From Teichococcus aestuarii (GTDB taxonomy: Bacteria; Pseudomonadota; Alphaproteobacteria; Acetobacterales; Acetobacteraceae), in assembly GCF_003116135.1 (NCBI RefSeq), contig NZ_PDOA01000007.1, positions 62,001-126,000 of the forward strand: DNA of 64,000 nt, in the 5' to 3' direction. The notes under the pieces were generated by a model that saw nothing but the letters and a program-made list of their open reading frames with translations, was not told where the DNA came from and did not search any database. Position numbers and translations under genes: made by a program. Below, piece after piece: positions 4,568 to 16,875 of the stretch; the stretch's first letter is position 1, and the number at the start of each line of letters is the position of its first letter.

Positions 4568-5608
4568 ATGACGACAACCCGCCGCGCGGCGCTGACCGGC
4601 AGCGCTGCCGCCCTCGCATCCCTCACCGCCGGCCTGCCCGGCTTGGCCCGCGCCCAGTCGAAGCAGGTGGTGGTCGGCACCTGGGGCGGCGACTATGGCG
4701 AGCTGCTGCGCCAGAACATCGACCAGCCCCTGGTGGTGCCGCAGGGCATCGAGGTGCTGCAGGACATCGCGGTGGCCGACCCGCGCAAGACCAAGCTGCT
4801 GGCCGAGCGCCAGGCCCGCCGCGGCACCTACGACATCGCCTGCCTGTCAGACACCGACATGCACATGGTGGCGGCGCAGAACGTGTTCGAGCCGCTGGAG
4901 ATGGGCAAGCTGAAGCGCGGCTCCGCCATCCTGCCGGCGCTGGCCAAGCCCTATGCGGTGCCGCACATCTATTCCGCGCTGGTGCTGCTCTACAACCCGA
5001 GCAAGGTGACCACGCCGCCCACCGGCTTCGCCGACATGTGGGACCCGAAGTACCGCGGCCGCGTCGGCTTCTCGGACATCCTCTACAGCACCAACACCTT
5101 CTCTGCCGCCATGGCCGGCGGCGGCAGCTTCAGCGATTACGAGCCCGCCAAGAAGAAGCTGATGGAGATGCGCTCGCTCGATGCCCGCATCTACCCCTCG
5201 AACGAGGCGCTGGCCGGCGCCCTGAAGTCCGAGGAGGTGTGGCTGACGCCGATGTGGCTGGCGCGCGGCTTCATGTGGCAGAAGGCCGGCATCCCAGTGA
5301 AGCATGTGGTGCCGAAGGAGGGCGCCTACGCCATCGTCTTCGAGGCGGCGATCCCGAAGAACAGCCGCAACAAGGACAACGCCTACACCTATCTGGACGC
5401 GATGCTGCAGCCCTCCGCCCAGGCCGCCTTCGCCGACCGCATGGGCTACCTGCCCACGGTGAAGGACGCGCCGCTGCCGGCCGCGATCGCCCAGCAGATC
5501 AGCCTCAGCGAGGCCGAGCAGGAGCGCCTGCGCGCGCCGGACTACGACTACCTGCTGAAGTCGCACAGCGAGATCCTGGATTTCTGGAACAAGCAGTTCA
5601 AGGCGTAA
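4568..5608 (+). CDS. extracellular solute-binding protein, PotD/AfuA-like
   Basis: A 346-residue periplasmic binding protein. The N-terminus 'MTTTRRAALTGSAAALASL' carries a twin-arginine-type signal, with likely cleavage after 'ARAQ', so it may be exported folded by Tat. The mature part starts 'VVVGTWGGDYGELLRQN', typical of family-1 binding proteins that serve PotABC-type importers. The start at 4568 is preferred over the in-frame ATG 13 codons upstream because the signal peptide begins there and 'GGGAGACAAGGC' provides a ribosome site. It lies between the ATPase and the second permease, three bases before the latter. Polyamine, iron or an organic acid are all possible ligands; the amidohydrolase in the same operon argues for an amide or lactam-type compound. 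Confidence 0.85.
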   Translation: MTTTRRAALTGSAAALASLTAGLPGLARAQSKQVVVGTWGGDYGELLRQNIDQPLVVPQGIEVLQDIAVADPRKTKLLAERQARRGTYDIACLSDTDMHMVAAQNVFEPLEMGKLKRGSAILPALAKPYAVPHIYSALVLLYNPSKVTTPPTGFADMWDPKYRGRVGFSDILYSTNTFSAAMAGGGSFSDYEPAKKKLMEMRSLDARIYPSNEALAGALKSEEVWLTPMWLARGFMWQKAGIPVKHVVPKEGAYAIVFEAAIPKNSRNKDNAYTYLDAMLQPSAQAAFADRMGYLPTVKDAPLPAAIAQQISLSEAEQERLRAPDYDYLLKSHSEILDFWNKQFKA

Positions 5609-9116: not shown

Positions 9117-10613
9117 TCAGGCCGCCTGCCGCACTTCCTGGAAGCTGCGCGCGAAATCCTGGCGCTCCGCCTCCGTCATGTGCAGCCCGCGCTTGGTGCG
9201 GCGCCACAGGGCGTCCTCGGGCGTGCGCACCCATTCCTGGCGCACCATCCAGTCCAGCTCGCGCTCGGTGATGCCGCCGCCGAGGTCGCGGCCGAGGTCG
9301 GCGGCGCTTCGCGCCTGCCCCAGTACGGCATCCAGTTCGCCACCATAGCAGTGGAACAGCCGGCGGAGCTGGGCCGCCGGCAGGAACGGGTAGCGCCGCG
9401 CCGCCTCGGCCAGGAACTCGGCGCTGGAGCGGCCGCCGAGGTCGCCGCCCGGCAGGGTGGCGCCCGCCGTCCAGGCCGCCCCCGCATGGCCGAGCGCCGT
9501 GGCGATCTGCCCTGCCGCATCCTCGGCGAGGCGGCGGTAGGTGGTGATCTTGCCACCGAAGACGGAGAGCAGTGGCGCGCCGTCCGTGTTCATCTTGAGC
9601 ACGTAGTCGCGCGTCACGGCGGAGGGGTTCTCGGCGCCGTCATCGTGCAGCGGCCGCACGCCGGAATAGCTCCAGACGATGTCCGAGGGCGAGACGGGGC
9701 GGCGGAACTGGCGGGAGACGGCGCGGCAGAGATAGGCCGCCTCCTCCGGCGTGCAGCGCGGCGCGCCGGCATCGGCGTCGTGCGGGACGTCGGTGGTGCC
9801 GATCAGGGTGAAGCGGCCCTCGTAGGGGATGACGAAGACCACGCGGCGGTCGTCATTCTGCAGGATATAGGCCTGGTCGCCCTCGTAGAGCGCGGGCACC
9901 ACGATGTGGCTGCCGCGCACGAGGCGGATGCGGTCCTTCGCCGCCACGCCCGTCTCGCCCAGCGCCTGCATCACCCACGGCCCGGCCGCGTTGGCGATGG
10001 CACGGGCGCGCACGGTGCGTACCTCGCCGCCCTCCTCGCGCAGCGTGGCGGTCCAGCCCTGGGCATCGCGCTTCGCGCCGGTGAAGGCGGTACGCACCAG
10101 GATGGTGGCGCCGCGCGCCGCAGCGTCCCGCGCGTTGAGGATGACGAGGCGCGCATCCTCCACCCAGGCATCGGAATAGGCGAAGCCATGGCGGGATTCG
10201 CCGTTCAGCGGCGCGCCCCAGGGGTGGGTTCGGAAATCCAGCGCCTCGCTCGCCGGCAGGGTCACGCGCCGGGCGAGGTTGTCGTAGAGGAAGAGGCCGG
10301 CGCGCAGCATCCAGCGCGGGCGCATGCCCGCCAGGTGGGGCAGCACGAAGCGCATCGGCCAGACGATGTGCGGGGCGAGGCGCAGCAGCACCTCGCGCTC
10401 GCCCAGCGCCTCGCGCACCAGGCGGAACTCGTAGTGCTCCAGGTAGCGCAGGCCGCCATGCACCAGCTTGGAGGAGGCGGAGGAGGTGGCGCCGCCCAGG
10501 TCGCCGCGCTCGGCGAGCAGAACTGAGAGGCCCCGCCCCGCCGCGTCGCGCGCGATGCCGGCGCCATTGGCGCCGCCGCCGATCACCAGCAGATCGACAG
10601 TGTCGGTGGTCAT
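9117..10613 (-). CDS. glpD: aerobic glycerol-3-phosphate dehydrogenase (GlpD-like)
   Basis: A 498-residue FAD enzyme, normal length for GlpD. It oxidises sn-glycerol 3-phosphate to dihydroxyacetone phosphate at the inner membrane and passes electrons to quinone. The N-terminal dinucleotide site reads 'LVIGGGANGAGIARDAAGRG'; 'SSASSKLVHGGLRYLEHYEF' and 'SVFGGKITTYRRLAEDA' are classic family blocks. The start codon overlaps the stop of the upstream permease by one base (TGATG), so it is the last gene of the DeoR-HAD-PhnDCEE operon. Being downstream of a phosphonate-type importer instead of with glpF or glpK is unusual. It implies that the imported compound yields glycerol 3-phosphate or a close analogue. 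Confidence 0.9.
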   Translation of the reverse strand: MTTDTVDLLVIGGGANGAGIARDAAGRGLSVLLAERGDLGGATSSASSKLVHGGLRYLEHYEFRLVREALGEREVLLRLAPHIVWPMRFVLPHLAGMRPRWMLRAGLFLYDNLARRVTLPASEALDFRTHPWGAPLNGESRHGFAYSDAWVEDARLVILNARDAAARGATILVRTAFTGAKRDAQGWTATLREEGGEVRTVRARAIANAAGPWVMQALGETGVAAKDRIRLVRGSHIVVPALYEGDQAYILQNDDRRVVFVIPYEGRFTLIGTTDVPHDADAGAPRCTPEEAAYLCRAVSRQFRRPVSPSDIVWSYSGVRPLHDDGAENPSAVTRDYVLKMNTDGAPLLSVFGGKITTYRRLAEDAAGQIATALGHAGAAWTAGATLPGGDLGGRSSAEFLAEAARRYPFLPAAQLRRLFHCYGGELDAVLGQARSAADLGRDLGGGITERELDWMVRQEWVRTPEDALWRRTKRGLHMTEAERQDFARSFQEVRQAA

Positions 10614-11446
10614 CAGAGAAGCCTCGAACGGAGACGGGTGACGATGATCTCGGCCACCAGCACCACGGCCAGGATCGCCAGCAGCACAGTGGAGACGCGG
10701 TCCCACTGGAAGAAGTTGATGGCGTCGTCCAGCACCAGCCCGATGCCGCCGGCGCCCACCAGCCCCAGCACGGCGCTCTCGCGCACGTTGATGTCCCAGC
10801 GGAACAGGGCGATGCCCCAGAAGGCCGGCTGCACCTGCGGCCAGACGCCCTTCAGCATCTCGGCCCCCCAGGAGGCACCGGCGGCGCGCAGCGCCTCGCG
10901 CGGGCCGTGGTTGGTCTCCTCCAGCGCCTCGGAGAGCAGCTTGCCGACGAAGCCTACCGAGCGGAAGGCGATGGCGAAGACGCCCGCCGCCGCGCCGGGG
11001 CCGAAGATGGCGACGAAGAGCAGCGCCCAGACCAGCGAGTTGACCGAGCGCGAGGCCACCAGGCTGAACTGCGCCACCACGTTGAGGGGCTTGATCGGGC
11101 AGATGTTGCGCGCCGCCATCAGCGCCAGCGGCACGGCGAGGATGAAGCAGAACAGCGTGCCGAGCGTCGCGATGTGCAGCGTCTCGATCAGCGCGTTGTG
11201 CACCTCGGGGTAGTAGTGCGCCACATTGGGCGGCCACATGCGGATCAGCAGGTCGGCCATCTGCTCCGGCGCGTCGGCCAGGAACTCCGGGATGATGTCG
11301 ATGCTGCGCACCGCCCAGACGATGGCGGCGACGCAGACCAGCCACACCGCGAAGCGCGAGAGCCGTTGGCCCGGCGTGTGGCGCGTCCATTCACGCCGCA
11401 GCGGCGCCATCGGGTCGCCGAAGGAGGGGGAGGTCATGCTGTTCAT
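10613..11446 (-). CDS. phnE: phosphonate-type ABC transporter permease (PhnE-like, second)
   Basis: A 277-residue integral membrane protein of the PhnE family. It has hydrophobic segments at about residues 35-50 and several after residue 95, with the characteristic 'ESAVLGLVGAGGIGLVLDD' near the C-terminus. It is one of two adjacent PhnE-like permeases that probably heterodimerise. The start overlaps the stop of the first permease by 4 bp (ATGA). An alternative Met lies three codons later. The C-terminus leads by TGATG into glpD. The binding protein and ATPase are upstream in the same operon. Confidence 0.85.
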   Translation of the reverse strand: MNSMTSPSFGDPMAPLRREWTRHTPGQRLSRFAVWLVCVAAIVWAVRSIDIIPEFLADAPEQMADLLIRMWPPNVAHYYPEVHNALIETLHIATLGTLFCFILAVPLALMAARNICPIKPLNVVAQFSLVASRSVNSLVWALLFVAIFGPGAAAGVFAIAFRSVGFVGKLLSEALEETNHGPREALRAAGASWGAEMLKGVWPQVQPAFWGIALFRWDINVRESAVLGLVGAGGIGLVLDDAINFFQWDRVSTVLLAILAVVLVAEIIVTRLRSRLL

Positions 11447-12243
11447 CGCAGGGCGGCCCGGACGCGGCCGGAGATGATCTCGGCCAGGAAGATGAGGGCG
11501 ATGATGGAGAGCAGGATGGCGGCGACGAAGTCGTAGTCGAAGCGCTTGAACGCCGCGAACAGCGTGCCGCCGATGCCGCCCGCGCCGACGATGCCGACCA
11601 GGGTGGAGTTCCGCAGGTTGCTGTCGAGCTGGTAGAGGCAGAAGCCGATGAAGCGCGAGGCCACCTGCGGCAGCACCGCATAGGCCAGCACCTTCATCAC
11701 GCCCGCGCCCGTGGCGCGGATCGCCTCCACCTGCTTCATCGAGATCTCCTCGATCGCCTCGGCGAAGAGCTTGGCGATGAAGCCGACCGAGGCCACCACC
11801 AGCGCCGCCGTGCCGGCCAGCGCGCCGAAGCCGATCGCCTTGACGAAGAGGATGGCGACGATGACGTAGTGCAGCGAGCGGCAGACGGCGATCACCGCGC
11901 GCACCGGCCCCGAGATCCACCAGGGCGAGAGGTTGCGCGCCGCCAGCACGCCGAGCGGCAGCGAGATGGCGATGCCGATGGCCGAGGCCAGCACCGCGAT
12001 CTGCAGGCTTTCCAGCATGCCTTCCAGCAGCAGGCCCCAGCGCTCGAAATTGGGTGGCACCATGCGGGCGAGCAGCCGCCCGCCCTCGCCGAGGCCGTGC
12101 CCCAGCCGGTCCCAGCTAAGGCCCAGGCGCGAGCTGGCCCAGATGGCGTAGGCGACGATCGCCAGCAGCGCCAGCCGCATCGGCCAGTTGGGCGCGAAGG
12201 CGACGCGCCGCGCCGCCTCCGGCGAGGGATGCGTGGCGCTCAC
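11443..12243 (-). CDS. phnE: phosphonate-type ABC transporter permease (PhnE-like, first)
   Basis: A 266-residue PhnE-like permease with about six hydrophobic segments. The conserved '[18 protein letters not shown]' parallels the motif in the neighbouring permease. The GTG at 12243 is taken as the start because it forms a GTGA overlap with the ATPase stop and has AGGA about eight bases upstream; a TTG two codons earlier is less likely. It acts in the inner membrane with the second permease and PhnC. Sequence alone does not separate phosphonate, phosphite, phosphate-ester or phosphate substrates in this family. Confidence 0.85.
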
Positions 12244-13037
12244 AGCCAATCCTCGCCGCCATAGATGGCCTGCAGGTGGTGGGTCTGCAGGGCCTCCGGC
12301 GGGCCGTCGAAGATCACGCTGCCGCCGGCCATGCCGACGATGCGGCGGGCGTAGCGCTTGGCGAGATCGACGTTGTGGATGTTGATGATGACCGGCACGT
12401 TCTCCGCCGCCGTCAGCTTCGCCAGCAGCTCCAGCACCTCGACCGCGGTGCGCGGGTCGAGCGAGGAGGTGGGCTCGTCGGCGAGCAGGATCTCGGGGCG
12501 CTGCATCAGCGCGCGGGCGATGCCGACGCGCTGGCGCTGGCCGCCCGAGAGCGCGTCGGCGCGGCGGGTGGCGTGCTCAGGCAGGCCCACCGCGTCCAGC
12601 AGCATGAAGGCGCGCTGGATGTCGGCCTCCGGGTACTTGCGCAGCCAGGCGCGCCAGAACGGCACGTAGCCGAGCCTTCCGCTCAGCACGTTCTCCATCA
12701 CCGTCAGGCGCTCCACCAGGTTGTATTCCTGGAACACCATGCCGATGCGCCGCCGCGCCAGCCGCAGGTCCCTGCCGCGCAGCCCGGTCAGCTCGGTGCC
12801 GCGCAGGCGGATCTCGCCCCGCGTCGGCTCGACCAGCCGGTTGATGCAGCGCAGCAGGGTGGACTTGCCGGTGCCGGAGGGGCCGATGATGGCGGTGATC
12901 CCCTCGGCCGCGACCGCGAGGTCGATGCCCTTCAGCACCGGCTTGCCGGCGGTGTACTCCTTGAACAGGCCCCGGATCTCCAGGGCATGCTCGAGGCGGG
13001 TTGCCGGCGGCGGCGCGGCGGTCAGCGTGGCGGACAT
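12240..13037 (-). CDS. phnC: phosphonate-type ABC transporter ATP-binding protein (PhnC-like)
   Basis: A 265-residue ATPase with Walker A 'GPSGTGKS', Q-loop '[14 protein letters not shown]', signature '[19 protein letters not shown]', Walker B '[12 protein letters not shown]' and the switch His in '[10 protein letters not shown]'. Those blocks, especially 'QEYNLV' and 'IHNVDLA', are typical of PhnC. The Met at 13037 starts 19 bp after the binding-protein stop. A 19-codon in-frame upstream extension has no family similarity. It energises the two PhnE-like permeases that follow with 4-bp overlaps. Confidence 0.9.
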
Positions 13038-13056
13038 GGCGTTGGCTTTCCGGCGC

Positions 13057-14145
13057 TCAGCGTGCCGCGGGGGCGGCACCCGTGGGCGCGACATGGGTGG
13101 GGGCGGCGGGCTGCTGCTGGGCGCGCTTGCGGGCCTCGGCCTCCAGCTCCTTGCGGGCCTCGGCGTCGAAGGCGGCGCGGTTGTAGGGCGCGTTCACGGC
13201 ATCGGCCACGGCGCGCACCGGGGCCCACTGCTCGGCATAGGTGGCGGGCCAGAAGCGGTCATTGCCGCCGAGGTCCTTGGCCATCTGCTCGGGGAAGCGG
13301 TAGTCGAGGAAGCACTGGCGGATCTTCTGGGAGAGTTCCGGCTTCAGGTCGTGCGCCACGGCGAAGCCGCTGGTGGGGAAGGGCTCGCTCTCCCACAGGA
13401 TGCGGAAGTTCTCGCGCTTCACCTGGCCGCGCGCCACCATGCGGGTCCAGACGTCGGAGGCCACGGGCGCCGCATCGTAGTCGCCGGCGTTGACGCCCAT
13501 CACGCTGCGGTCATGCCCGCCGGAATAGACCACCTGGTAATCGGTCTCCGGCGTCAGGCCGAGGCCGGGGAAGAAGGCGCGCGGCGCCAGGTTGCCCGAG
13601 TTGGAGGTGGCGGAGGTGTGCGCCACGCGCTTGCCCTTGAGGTCGGCCAGCGTCCTGTAGGGGCTGTCCGCCTTCACCAGCATGACGACCTTGTAGCTCT
13701 CGAAGCCATCCGCGTTGCCCTTCACGGCGAAGGGCACGGCGCCGGCGAGGTTCACCGCGAAGGCGGTGGGGCCGGTGGAGAAGCCCGCCACATGCAGCCG
13801 GCCGGAGCGCATCGCCTCCACCTGGGCGGCGTTCGAGGTCACCTGGAAGTACACGGCGCGCTTTCCGGTGCACTTGCCGAGGTATTCCAGGAAGGGGCGG
13901 AACTGGCTGGAATAGAGCGCCGGGTCCTCCACGGGGGTGTAGGTGAAGACGATGGTGGAGGGGTCGCGCAGCTTCGAGGCGTCGGCCGGGGTGTCGGCCA
14001 CCATGTCGCGGTTGGCGTCGCAATAGCCTTCGTCGAGCGAACCGCGGAAGGCGCAGGCGCCGTCCTGCGCCAGGGCGGGCGCCGCGCCGGGCAGGGCCCA
14101 GAGGGTGAGGGCGAGCGCGGTGCTCGCCAGGATCGTGTTCTTCAT
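13057..14145 (-). CDS. phnD: phosphate/phosphite/phosphonate-type solute-binding protein (PhnD-like)
   Basis: A 362-residue periplasmic binding protein. It has a clear Sec signal, with a hydrophobic stretch at residues 6-22 and cleavage near 'ALAQ'. The mature part shows family blocks '[19 protein letters not shown]', '[20 protein letters not shown]' and '[18 protein letters not shown]'; the Ser/Thr/Asn-rich loop is where family members bind the phosphoryl group. The last 30 or so residues are unusual: a charged helix of Glu, Arg and Lys, then a short Ala/Pro tail. It overlaps the HAD gene stop by 4 bp. Ligand identity is not deducible; GlpD in the operon favours a glycerol-linked phosphate or phosphonate. 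Confidence 0.85.
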
Positions 14146-14981
14146 GCGGCCGTTTCCTCTCGCATCGCGCCACGCGCCTGGAGCAGCGCGTCGGCGAATT
14201 CGGCAAAGCCCGCGCCGCCCTCGGCACGGGTGATGTAGGCCGGCGGCGTCGCCATGCCGGCCAGGAAGGGGGCGACATTCGCCACCCCCACGGAGAAAGG
14301 CACAGCGCCGAAGAGCGGCGCGTCATTGCCGCTGTCGCCCACGAAGGCCACGCTGTCGCGCAGCGCGGCGAAGGGGCGGAAGCGGGCGGCGAACAGCGCC
14401 TCGATGCCCGCGCGCTTGTCCCAGCCGCCGATCCAGGCATTGACGTGGATGGAGGAGACCTTGGCCTCGGCGCCGCCGTCCAGGAACACCTGCGCGATGC
14501 GCCGCGCGGCGCCGAGGTCGAGCGGCCCGGCATCCTCGCAGAAATCCACCGCCACATCGAAGAGGCGGAAGGGCTGGTCGGCGGCGATGGCGGCGCCCGG
14601 CACGGCGGCCATGGCCGCATCGGCCAGCGCCATCAGCCGCGCGCGGTTGGCCAGGCGCTCCGCCTCGGTCTGGGCCTGCCAGCGGAGCATCCGCCGCGCC
14701 TGGCGGTCCAGCGCGTACCACAGCGCGCCATTCTCCCCCACCACCGCGGCCACCGGCCAATGCCGGGCGATGGCGTCGCACCACCCGGCCGGGCGGCCGG
14801 TGACGGGGATGACGGCGATGCCGGCGGCGTCCAGCGCCTGCAACGCCGAATAGGCCTCGGCCGGCAGGCGGCCATCGGTGGTCAGGGTGTCGTCGATGTC
14901 GGTCAGCACGTAGCGCAGCCCCGCCAGCCCTGTGGCGGGGGCGTCGCTGAGCGGCCGGGGAGGGGCGGATTCTTGTGTCAT
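14142..14981 (-). CDS. HAD-IIB family phosphatase
   Basis: A haloacid-dehalogenase-type phosphatase of up to 279 residues. Motif I is 'LTDIDDTLTTDG' (nucleophile Asp and acid/base Asp), motif II 'VIPVTGRP', and motif IV 'VAFVGDSGNDAPLF'. The middle cap region places it in class IIB, with sugar-phosphate and mannosyl-phosphoglycerate phosphatases. The ATG at 14981 lies inside a 22-bp palindrome and a likely -10 element, so transcripts from that promoter could not use it. The GTG at 14909 gives 'MLTDIDDTLTTDG', a normal HAD N-terminus, with GGCGGGG upstream. In this operon it may dephosphorylate a product of the imported compound. Confidence 0.8.
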   Translation of the reverse strand: MTQESAPPRPLSDAPATGLAGLRYVLTDIDDTLTTDGRLPAEAYSALQALDAAGIAVIPVTGRPAGWCDAIARHWPVAAVVGENGALWYALDRQARRMLRWQAQTEAERLANRARLMALADAAMAAVPGAAIAADQPFRLFDVAVDFCEDAGPLDLGAARRIAQVFLDGGAEAKVSSIHVNAWIGGWDKRAGIEALFAARFRPFAALRDSVAFVGDSGNDAPLFGAVPFSVGVANVAPFLAGMATPPAYITRAEGGAGFAEFADALLQARGAMREETAA

Positions 14982-14994
14982 ATATATGACACAA
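14973..14994. promoter_or_regulatory. 22-bp perfect palindrome, candidate operator
   Basis: The left half TTGTGTCATAT is followed at once by its exact reverse complement, giving 22 bp with no mismatch and no spacer. It lies between the DeoR-type regulator and the HAD gene and covers the annotated HAD start. It abuts a second dyad at 14995. DeoR/GlpR or GntR-type repressors would be natural ligands; which protein binds is not known from sequence. Confidence 0.8.
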
Positions 14995-15008
14995 CTGCCA
15001 CGCTTCAA
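14979..15008 (-). promoter_or_regulatory. putative sigma-70-type promoter embedded in the dyads
   Basis: On the minus strand TTGAAG (15008-15003) is followed after 16 bases by TATATA (14986-14981), a reasonable -35/-10 pair in an otherwise GC-rich region. The -35 lies in the spacer of the right dyad and the -10 in the centre of the left palindrome, so a bound repressor would occlude both. This would drive HAD-phnDCEE-glpD independently of the regulator gene. Confidence 0.5.
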
Positions 15009-15016
15009 TGTGGCAG
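14995..15016. promoter_or_regulatory. second dyad, CTGCCAC-N8-GTGGCAG
   Basis: Seven-base arms CTGCCAC and GTGGCAG are separated by eight bases, giving 22 bp in total. It abuts the 22-bp palindrome at 14973-14994 with no gap, so the two centres are 22 bp apart, about two helical turns. A CTGCCAC half-site also occurs at 15832-15838, just upstream of the regulator start, which fits autoregulation but could be chance. Confidence 0.6.
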
Positions 15017-15030
15017 GTCAAACAGGTTTT

Positions 15031-15822
15031 TCAGGATTCCACGGCGATTGTGAGGCGAGTCCCACATCGCCCCAGCGCCGCCTCCAGCGCCGCCGGGGGC
15101 GGGGCCTCCGTGACCACGTCGGTCAGGCTCTCCAGCGGTGCCAGCACTTCCAGGAAGGCGCGGCCGAACTTGGAAGAGTCCACAAGCAGCAGCCGCCGCT
15201 CCGCCCGCTCCAGCATGGCGCGCTTGACCCAGGCGGCGCGGCTCTCCGCTTCGCACGGCCCTTCCTCGGTGAGGCCGGAGGCGCCGATCACCGCCATGTC
15301 CACGTTGAAGCGCCGCAGGAAGGCATGGGTCTCGGCGCCGTAGAGGCCGCGCTCCACCACGCTCAGCTCCCCCGGCGCCACCAGCACGCGCAGCGCCTCG
15401 GAGGTGCCGGCGGCCAGCGCCGCGTCCAGGCTGTTGGTCAGCAGCGTGGCGCGCACGCCGCGCGCGGCGAGGGCGCGGGCGAAATGGGTGGTGGTGCTGC
15501 CGGCATCCAGCATCACCACCGCGCCCTCCTCCACCAGCGCCGCCGCCTCCCGCCCGATGCGCGAGCGCTCGGCCACCAGCACGCGCTCGCGCTCGCCGAG
15601 GCCCGGCTGCACAGCGGGGTGCGAGGCGGAGGCGCCGCCATAGGTGCGGCGCACCATGCCCCGGGCGGAAAGCTCCTCCACATCGCGCCGCACCGTCTCG
15701 GCGGAGACGTTGAAGCCATCCGCCAGCGTGCTGATGCGGACGGTGGGGTCGGTCGCGAGCGCCTCGAGAATCGCCGCGTGACGGGCGGCTTTCCCGAGCG
15801 CATCCTTGCTGCGTCTGGCCAT
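15031..15822 (-). CDS. DeoR/GlpR family transcriptional regulator
   Basis: A 263-residue repressor-type regulator. The N-terminal helix-turn-helix reads 'RISTLADGFNVSAETVRRDV', followed by the family signature 'ELSARGMVRRTYGGA'. The C-terminal part ('MLDAGSTTTHFARAL', 'LLTNSLDAALA', 'VDSSKFGR') is the DeoR sugar-phosphate-sensing domain. Known relatives sense phosphorylated sugars or glycerol 3-phosphate. It is the first gene of the HAD-phnDCEE-glpD operon and probably controls it through the dyads at 14973-15016. It is divergent from the DapA-like gene, 114 bp away, and may control that too. The start at 15822 follows 'GGGTGGGGGC'. Confidence 0.88.
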   Translation of the reverse strand: MARRSKDALGKAARHAAILEALATDPTVRISTLADGFNVSAETVRRDVEELSARGMVRRTYGGASASHPAVQPGLGERERVLVAERSRIGREAAALVEEGAVVMLDAGSTTTHFARALAARGVRATLLTNSLDAALAAGTSEALRVLVAPGELSVVERGLYGAETHAFLRRFNVDMAVIGASGLTEEGPCEAESRAAWVKRAMLERAERRLLLVDSSKFGRAFLEVLAPLESLTDVVTEAPPPAALEAALGRCGTRLTIAVES

Positions 15823-15936
15823 GCCCCCACCCTGCCACAGCGCTGCGCGCCCGCAAGAGTGGCGCGCCGGGGCGCGGTTTGCCTGCCGGTGCTTCTCGGG
15901 TAAAGGAATCCGCACCGTACCGGAGGGAATTCCCGC

Positions 15937-16875
15937 ATGCCGCTCGATCACACCGCCAAGGGTGTCTACCCGATCGCTCCCACCCCGTTCCATGCCGATG
16001 GCCAGGTGGACTACGCCTCGATCGACCGCATGACGGATTTCTACCGCTCGGTCGGCAGCACCGGCATGACGGTGCTGGGCGTGATGGGCGAGGCGCCGAA
16101 GCTCGACGGCGCCGAGGCGCTGGAGATCGCCCGCCGCTTCATCCGCCGCGCCGAGGGGCTGCCGGTGATCGTCGGCGTCTCCGCCCCCGGCTTCGCGGCG
16201 ATGCGCGCCCTGGCCCGCAACGCGATGGAGGCCGGCGCCGCCGGCGTGATGATCGCGCCGCCCAACACGCTGCGCACGGACGACCAGATCACCACCTACT
16301 ACCGCCAGGCCTCCGAGGCGATCGGCGAGGACGTGCCCTTCGTCATCCAGGACTTCCCGCAGACCTTCTCCGTGGTGATGACCAACGCCGTCATCCGCCG
16401 CATCGTGCAGGAGAACGCGGCCTGCGTGATGCTGAAGCACGAGGACTGGCCGGGCCTGGAGAAGATCTCCGCCCTGCGCGGCTTCCAGGCGGATGGCTCG
16501 ATGCGCCCCATCTCCATCCTCTGCGGCAATGGCGGGCTGTTCCTCGACTTCGAGGTGGAGCGCGGCGCCGATGGCGCGATGACCGGCTACGCCTTCCCCG
16601 ACATGCTGTGCGACGTGGTGCGGCTGCAGGCCGAGGGCCAGCGCGACGCGGCGCACGACCTGTTCGACGCCCACCTGCCGCTGCTGCGCTACGAGCAGCA
16701 GCAGGGCCCGACGGGGCTGGCCGTGCGCAAGTACGTCATGGCGCGGCGCGGCATCATCGCCTCCGACGCGCAGCGCAAGCCGGGCGCCAGCCTCACCGCC
16801 AAGGCCAAGGCCGAGGTGGAGTACCTGCTCGCCCGCGTGGCGCGCCACGACCCGCGCGCGGGCGCGCTGGGCTGA
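15937..16875 (+). CDS. dihydrodipicolinate synthase (DapA) family aldolase/lyase
   Basis: A 312-residue class I aldolase of the DapA/N-acetylneuraminate lyase superfamily. The Schiff-base Lys is in 'CVMLKHED' (residue 167). At the position where DapA has 'YN-P' with the catalytic Tyr this protein has 'IQDFPQ', so the tyrosine is missing. Genuine lysine-pathway DapA activity is therefore unlikely, and a keto-acid aldolase or dehydratase role is more plausible. The start at 15937 has a strong 'CGGAGGGA' site. The next gene, a 2-hydroxyacid dehydrogenase, is 19 bp downstream. The pair could process a 2-oxo acid released by cleavage. It is divergent from the DeoR-type regulator. Confidence 0.82.
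   Translation: MPLDHTAKGVYPIAPTPFHADGQVDYASIDRMTDFYRSVGSTGMTVLGVMGEAPKLDGAEALEIARRFIRRAEGLPVIVGVSAPGFAAMRALARNAMEAGAAGVMIAPPNTLRTDDQITTYYRQASEAIGEDVPFVIQDFPQTFSVVMTNAVIRRIVQENAACVMLKHEDWPGLEKISALRGFQADGSMRPISILCGNGGLFLDFEVERGADGAMTGYAFPDMLCDVVRLQAEGQRDAAHDLFDAHLPLLRYEQQQGPTGLAVRKYVMARRGIIASDAQRKPGASLTAKAKAEVEYLLARVARHDPRAGALG

Follow-up and report, generated by a model that had tools for sequence, protein, structure and literature searches.

The window, by which we mean the whole stretch of 64,000 nucleotides of Teichococcus aestuarii DNA analysed here, carries on its minus strand a gene for a DeoR/GlpR-family regulator (15822-15031), followed by two abutting dyads, a HAD-IIB hydrolase gene (14981-14142), and genes for a PhnD-like binding protein, PhnC, two PhnE permeases and GlpD. 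The hydrolase gene is probably the first gene of a DeoR-controlled operon.

15031..15822, minus strand: gene for the DeoR/GlpR-family regulator (deoR), 263 aa, with HTH_DeoR and DeoRC domains (Pfam)
14142..14981, minus strand: gene for the HAD-IIB hydrolase, 279 aa when read from the ATG at 14981-14979, with TIGR01484 above its cut-off and Pfam Hydrolase_3
13057-14145, minus strand: gene for the PhnD-like binding protein (NCBIfam)
12240-13094, minus strand: gene for PhnC (NCBIfam)
9117..14145, minus strand: downstream part of the operon, covering the PhnD-like protein, PhnC, the two PhnE permeases and GlpD (NCBIfam)

The protein encoded at 15031-15822 is a member of the DeoR/GlpR family, with an N-terminal HTH_DeoR domain (PF08220, E=4.7e-15) and a C-terminal DeoRC sensor domain (PF00455, E=1.1e-37), each scoring above its gathering threshold in a scan of 15031-15900; its ATG start was picked through comparison of orthologs. 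It reached none of the NCBIfam equivalog cut-offs for the named DeoR regulators GlpR, AgaR, SrlR, UlaR and DeoR, the best scores being 124.7 bits for AgaR (cut-off 260) and 121.3 for PRK10906 DeoR/GlpR (cut-off 331), and a search of solved structures with the regulator returned one weak relative, 7l6l_A, Deoxyribose operon repressor (E=9.8e-07). The HTH motif ETVRRD, which we take to be the recognition helix of these proteins, is found in 37 of 38 DeoR proteins, including that of the window. Since this motif is retained, the regulator of the window should still recognise the same DNA motif as the DeoR proteins of its relatives.

Orthologs of the HAD hydrolase were collected from three sources: 58 related genomes, with matches in 16 (one of them the window's own); 299 genomes of the family, with matches at E <=1e-40 in 21; and named genome contigs, from which the best 80 of 547 were used. 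Among these best 80 of 547, HAD-IIB orthologs also occur far outside Acetobacteraceae, in Desulfobacterales, Spirochaetaceae, Microvirga and others (L042-L098), and for 45 of the 57 loci concerned no DeoR homolog was found. In loci L139 and L140, the operon, or just its initial genes where only that part was fetched, is plasmid-borne, the plasmids being pL11-C of Pseudoroseomonas cervicalis and p1318-1 of Roseomonas marmotae; the R. marmotae plasmid has the identical annotated gene order, and its copy lies near IS701 and IS5 transposases.

We show that orthologous operons (deoR, HAD hydrolase, phnD/C/E/E, glpD) have a control region in common, located in the interval from deoR to the HAD gene. 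At Roseomonas-type loci this region consists of TTGACC, CCACA, a weaker inverted TGnGG and CCACA/CAACA, with the half-sites at steps of about 11 bp. In the window it is here that the initial annotation placed its two dyads, both of which are present and can be read directly: a mismatch-free 22-bp palindrome, TTGTGTCATATATATGACACAA, at 14973-14994 (dyad 1) and, abutting it without a gap, CTGCCAC-GCTTCAAT-GTGGCAG at 14995-15016 (dyad 2), with their centres 22 bp apart. The counts below refer to 36 distinct regions with a tandem deoR gene (38 rows minus L048 and L055, in which deoR is divergent), where half-sites were placed by a score that favours them and the gap between half-sites 2 and 3 was fixed at 6 bases; the free pattern counts given further on are unaffected by this procedure.

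15016..15021, minus strand: TTGACC, putative -35-like element of the HAD-phn-glpD promoter; TTGA stands at the matching distance from half-site 1 in 30 of 36 regions
15009..15013, minus strand: half-site 1, CCACA; CCACA in 34 of 36 regions
14998..15002, minus strand: half-site 2, inverted (CGTGG); GTGG in 20 of 36 regions, with 10 of the remaining 16 starting with TG
14987..14991, minus strand: position of half-site 3; CCACA or CAACA in 34 of 36 regions, TGTCA (half-site lost) in the window

Half-sites 1 and 2 are separated by five or six bases. Half-site 3 is missing from the window and from L013, another genus member, which has GGGCA at this position, and is kept as CAACA by 11 of the 12 other genus members with the region. 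The two Microvirga loci with a divergent deoR gene (L048 and L055) have sites of the CCACA/TGTGG type in the common intergenic region.

Taken by itself, dyad 2 is unremarkable, as dyads of its dimensions (7-bp arms, 8-nt spacer) number 29 in the 64-kb window, where 18.3 are expected; its significance comes from conservation across orthologous operons, not from rarity. Of the 36 regions, 20 retain its 4-bp core, CCAC/GTGG, and dyad 2 probably represents half-sites 1 and 2 of a DeoR-family operator. The initial annotation had regarded both dyads as possible regulator-binding sites, to be refuted if neither were conserved before orthologous operons; dyad 2, with its core kept there, withstands this check, and dyad 1, which is absent there, does not. 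Its proposal of a DeoR-linked site overlapping the promoter region of the operon is supported, and dyad 2 belongs to that site. Two regulators, or two dimers bound 22 bp apart, had also been suggested; the conserved pattern is one of three half-sites of a single motif at steps of about 11 bp. A pair of abutting operators for two regulators was rejected, given that the arm of dyad 1 occurs in none of the compared loci from other genomes and that the genome holds no further copy of the palindrome within 3 mismatches.

The motif also co-occurs with the regulator gene. Among the best 80 of 547 named loci, grouped by hand into those with a tandem upstream DeoR gene (25), those without a DeoR hit at E up to 1e-5 (45, part of which end at contig ends) and those with any other DeoR hit (10), two copies of C[CA]ACA lie 21-22 bp apart upstream of the HAD gene in 24 of 25, 0 of 45 and 1 of 10 loci, respectively, L041 being the tandem locus without them. 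The association with a tandem DeoR gene gives a Fisher p of 7e-18, although the species are related and the counts are not independent events; first-order shuffles gave 0.0006. With the free pattern TTGA-N4-C[CA]ACA, the corresponding counts in the same best 80 of 547 are 19 of 25, 0 of 45 and 2 of 10. A conserved repeat that co-occurs with its presumptive regulator gene, as expected of an operator, is thus observed at these loci (24 of 25 against 0 of 45). In Nitratireductor (L051, L066 and L089), the DeoR homolog lies downstream of the HAD gene and TGTGGTAGTTTGCAA is found in the upstream region.

At part of the loci, a motif of the same kind stands before deoR. Perfect TGTGG-N6-CCACA occurs in 12 of the 38 regions upstream of deoR, compared with 0.00013 occurrences per shuffled sequence, and in nine of these 12 it ends a few bases from the deoR ATG; the sites of L013 and L055 lie further up, and the L018 copy, at -61, looks like chance. 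In the other 26 regions, including those of the window and its sister species, the site is absent or degenerate.

15824..15839, minus strand: degenerate candidate autoregulatory site before deoR, TGTGG-CAGGGT-GGGGG, matching at 5 of 10 positions with one half-site left; perfect at the matching place in nine relatives

The sister species, like the window, retains only one half of this site. A wider regulon sought with the pattern TGTGGYANNTNCMACA was rejected: it matched 2 of 16 genus genomes (none of them the window's), which equals its reversed control (also two genomes, G007 and G014), and of the two matches one falls where the site upstream of deoR stands (G006), the other lying apparently inside coding sequence (G009). 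This pattern would miss the degenerate sites of the genus. The pattern CCACAT-N15-17-CMACAT occurs at three places in the window's own genome versus one in the reversed control, one of the three (C85:67252-67278) being window 5252-5278. A perfect TGTGGCAGGTGCCACA was seen at 1501-1516 of L137, inside apparent coding frames; the ortholog search had yielded no HAD gene for this genus member. We found no literature on this operator among open-licence papers.

The arrangement of the control region suggests where transcription would begin. The -35 element of the promoter would be the conserved TTGACC at 15021-15016; the -10 hexamers are weak, and a simple sigma-70 consensus scan of 14900-15950 returned no sites. 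The HAD gene likely starts at the ATG at 14981-14979 on the minus strand, and dyad 1 overlaps this start codon, a point on which the initial annotation was silent. The RefSeq annotation of pL11-C places the HAD start six codons further downstream, and that of R. marmotae likewise uses a later ATG; this later ATG is absent from the window and from 8 of 11 genus rows. If the TTGACC promoter is right, the transcript would start within a few bases of the HAD ATG. In the alphaproteobacterium Methylorubrum, 7% of mRNAs are leaderless, with leaders of 0 to 9 nt (PMC9320726).

A different minus-strand promoter, TTGAAG-N16-TATATA, had been proposed previously. The sequence does exist, and its TATATA was created by the rewriting of the left arm of dyad 1 described below, so that it could be a real promoter new in the window's lineage. 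However, neither hexamer is conserved, TTGAAG falling in the variable spacer between half-sites and TATATA being specific to the window's genome, with TATATG in 11 genus relatives. Moreover, each hexamer matches at 4 of 6 positions by eye, the scan missed the pair, and a transcript from it would begin after the nearest HAD start codon. We consider such a promoter highly improbable.

It is also conceivable that the dyads act as RNA, dyad 2 as a terminator or attenuator behind deoR and the hairpin of dyad 1 hiding the HAD start codon. Both dyads of the window do fold well (44 nt, -18.8 kcal/mol; -10.3 for the sister sequence). On the other hand, among the three relatives folded along with the sister, the dyad 2 stem has just 4 pairs in L009, gives way to a different, weak fold in L037 (-1.6) and is absent in L028, and the CCACA repeats persist where this stem decays. 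Nor did the sequence match any Rfam family at the gathering score, the sole line, mir-935 at 26.9 bits versus 73, being noise. Dyad 2 was rejected as a Rho-independent terminator (a GC-rich hairpin with a T run), as 14900-15950 contains no terminator-like sites. Taken together, these results make an RNA-level role very unlikely.

Dyad 1 calls for a separate account. It is the only palindrome in the 64-kb window with arms of at least 11, where 0.15 are expected under a first-order Markov model, and the 5.2-Mb genome contains no second copy within 3 mismatches. Its two arms differ in conservation.

14984..14994, minus strand: left arm of dyad 1, minus-strand reading TTGTGTCATAT; rewritten in the window's lineage, with 5 of 11 positions differing from the sister species
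14973..14983, minus strand: right arm of dyad 1, ATATGACACAA; conserved, likely the HAD start ATG plus codons 2-3

The right arm, within which the likely HAD start is ATGACACAA, is the same in 11 of the 12 other genus members with the region and on plasmid pL11-C, and reads ATGAGACAA in L013. The left arm sits where half-site 3 (CAACA) stands in relatives; CAACATG is gone from the window, and among the 140 loci compared the rewritten arm occurs only in four, all from the window's own genome. Dyad 1 as a conserved operator is therefore supported by neither arm, one found in no other genome among these 140 loci and the other being coding sequence. In the relatives, the same place is occupied by a 21-nt block, CAACATGTATATGACACAAGA (window 14971-14991), which is identical in 11 of the 12 other genus members with the region (L003-L012 and L018) and in P. 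cervicalis pL11-C; the window and L013 differ in it. In the 11 genus rows, a count that omits the window and L013 and in which L011 lacks 6 bases downstream, all 21 positions of the block are invariant, versus 62 of 114 aligned positions downstream. This invariance extends to synonymous positions in ACA and CAA and exceeds the needs of a half-site; it may serve the translation of a near-leaderless mRNA or the binding of a second factor.

Comparison of the window with its sister species points to the origin of the palindrome. The sister sequence is an imperfect palindrome in which 6 of 11 positions are already paired, and 10 further genus members carry the identical CAACATGTATATGACACAA, part of this ancestral state. 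All five left-arm positions that mismatched the right arm have changed in the window, each to the complement of the right arm, while the six matching positions are unchanged. Depending on the divergence assumed, the probability of obtaining this pattern by independent substitution is 1e-8 to 2e-6. Both features of a quasi-palindrome template switch are thus observed, namely an imperfect ancestral palindrome and clustered changes that match the complement of the other arm (5 of 5 within the arm, with a flanking change that misfits). Because the changes hit exactly the five mismatches and spared all six matches, we favour a template switch, and the perfect palindrome is probably its product, not a second operator. 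This event does not account for a substitution immediately next to the palindrome, nor for three more in the spacer close by. Since a single genome of the species was compared, it may also be that an assembly error at the hairpin made the palindrome apparent.

Another possibility is that this lineage acquired dyad 1 as a functional operator, the palindrome having been perfected by selection and being bound over the start codon by DeoR or by a second dimeric regulator. The perfect 22-bp symmetry (0.15 expected per window), the placement at the promoter and start, and the tight conservation of the ancestral block (21/21 in 11 genus rows vs 62/114 aligned positions downstream) are all in keeping with this idea. 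Nevertheless, one arm is constrained as coding sequence, the genome contains no other copy within 3 mismatches, the window's DeoR retains the HTH motif of the family, and the changes resemble a single templated event, so we regard a gained operator as unlikely. We are slightly less sceptical, but still doubtful, of the idea that one natural template switch rewired a repressor-controlled promoter, erasing a half-site and creating a perfect palindrome at the start codon, with the result that control of the operon would now differ in kind, through weaker repression by DeoR, a new operator or a hairpin at the start codon.

From the sequences themselves, their conservation, their co-occurrence with the regulator gene and the precise set of changes, we infer that 14973-15021 forms the promoter/operator of the HAD-phnD-phnC-phnE-phnE-glpD operon and is bound by the DeoR repressor encoded upstream, with dyad 1 being a template-switch scar, a reading to which we assign a probability of about 0.7. 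According to this model, the repressor would recognise CCACA half-sites in an array ordered as -35 element (TTGACC), half-site 1, inverted half-site 2, -10 region and half-site 3. Bound to the array, it would cover the -35 and -10 elements and switch the operon off until an inducer, probably a phosphorylated metabolite of the pathway, releases it. In many relatives, DeoR would in addition repress its own gene through TGTGG-N6-CCACA over the -10 region of that gene; repressor sites over the -10 element are said to be typical of the DeoR family (PMC12632272). In the window's lineage, a template switch at the imperfect palindrome would have rewritten the left arm as the complement of the arm with the start codon, thereby producing the perfect palindrome and erasing half-site 3. 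Because half-site 3 is lost, repression of the operon in this species should be weaker or different.

Our analysis provides an operator motif (CCACA half-sites and TGTGG-N6-CCACA) for a repressor of the DeoR family that has no close named relative in NCBIfam. In Roseomonas-type bacteria, this repressor probably controls an operon encoding a phosphonate-type transporter and GlpD. The analysis also illustrates that a palindrome, however perfect, may be a side product of mutation and may have destroyed a binding site instead of forming one, which is a warning for the prediction of operators from single genomes. If the template switch is true, the locus would represent a natural case of a multi-base regulatory change arising in one mutational event.

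The system described here resembles the sugar-phosphate repressors GlpR and DeoR of E. coli, as well as MtnR, in combining HTH_DeoR and DeoRC domains and in having its gene adjoin the probable target operon. It differs from them in its CCACA/TGTGG half-sites, in a three-half-site array at steps of about 11 bp over the operon promoter, in an operon that combines genes for a phosphonate-type transporter, for a HAD hydrolase and for GlpD, and in scores below every listed equivalog cut-off. Bacillus subtilis IolR is a DeoR-family regulator with a tandem direct-repeat operator; family and directly repeated half-sites are alike, whereas the half-site sequence and the operon are not. An inverted repeat over the -10 region is common to the present system, to DeoR, for which it is stated, and to MtnR, for which it is proposed (PMC12632272). 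Quasi-palindrome mutations are described for E. coli lacZ reporters (PMC7202029), and template switching at quasi-palindromes is proposed as a source of perfect hairpins in RNA genes (PMC8794818). As in those cases, a cluster of changes perfects an inverted repeat with the other arm as template, whereas here the difference is one between species, lies within a repressor operator and has its mechanism deduced from sequence alone. The operator is therefore of an ordinary kind, newly delimited, and the scar within it is an unusual feature specific to one lineage.
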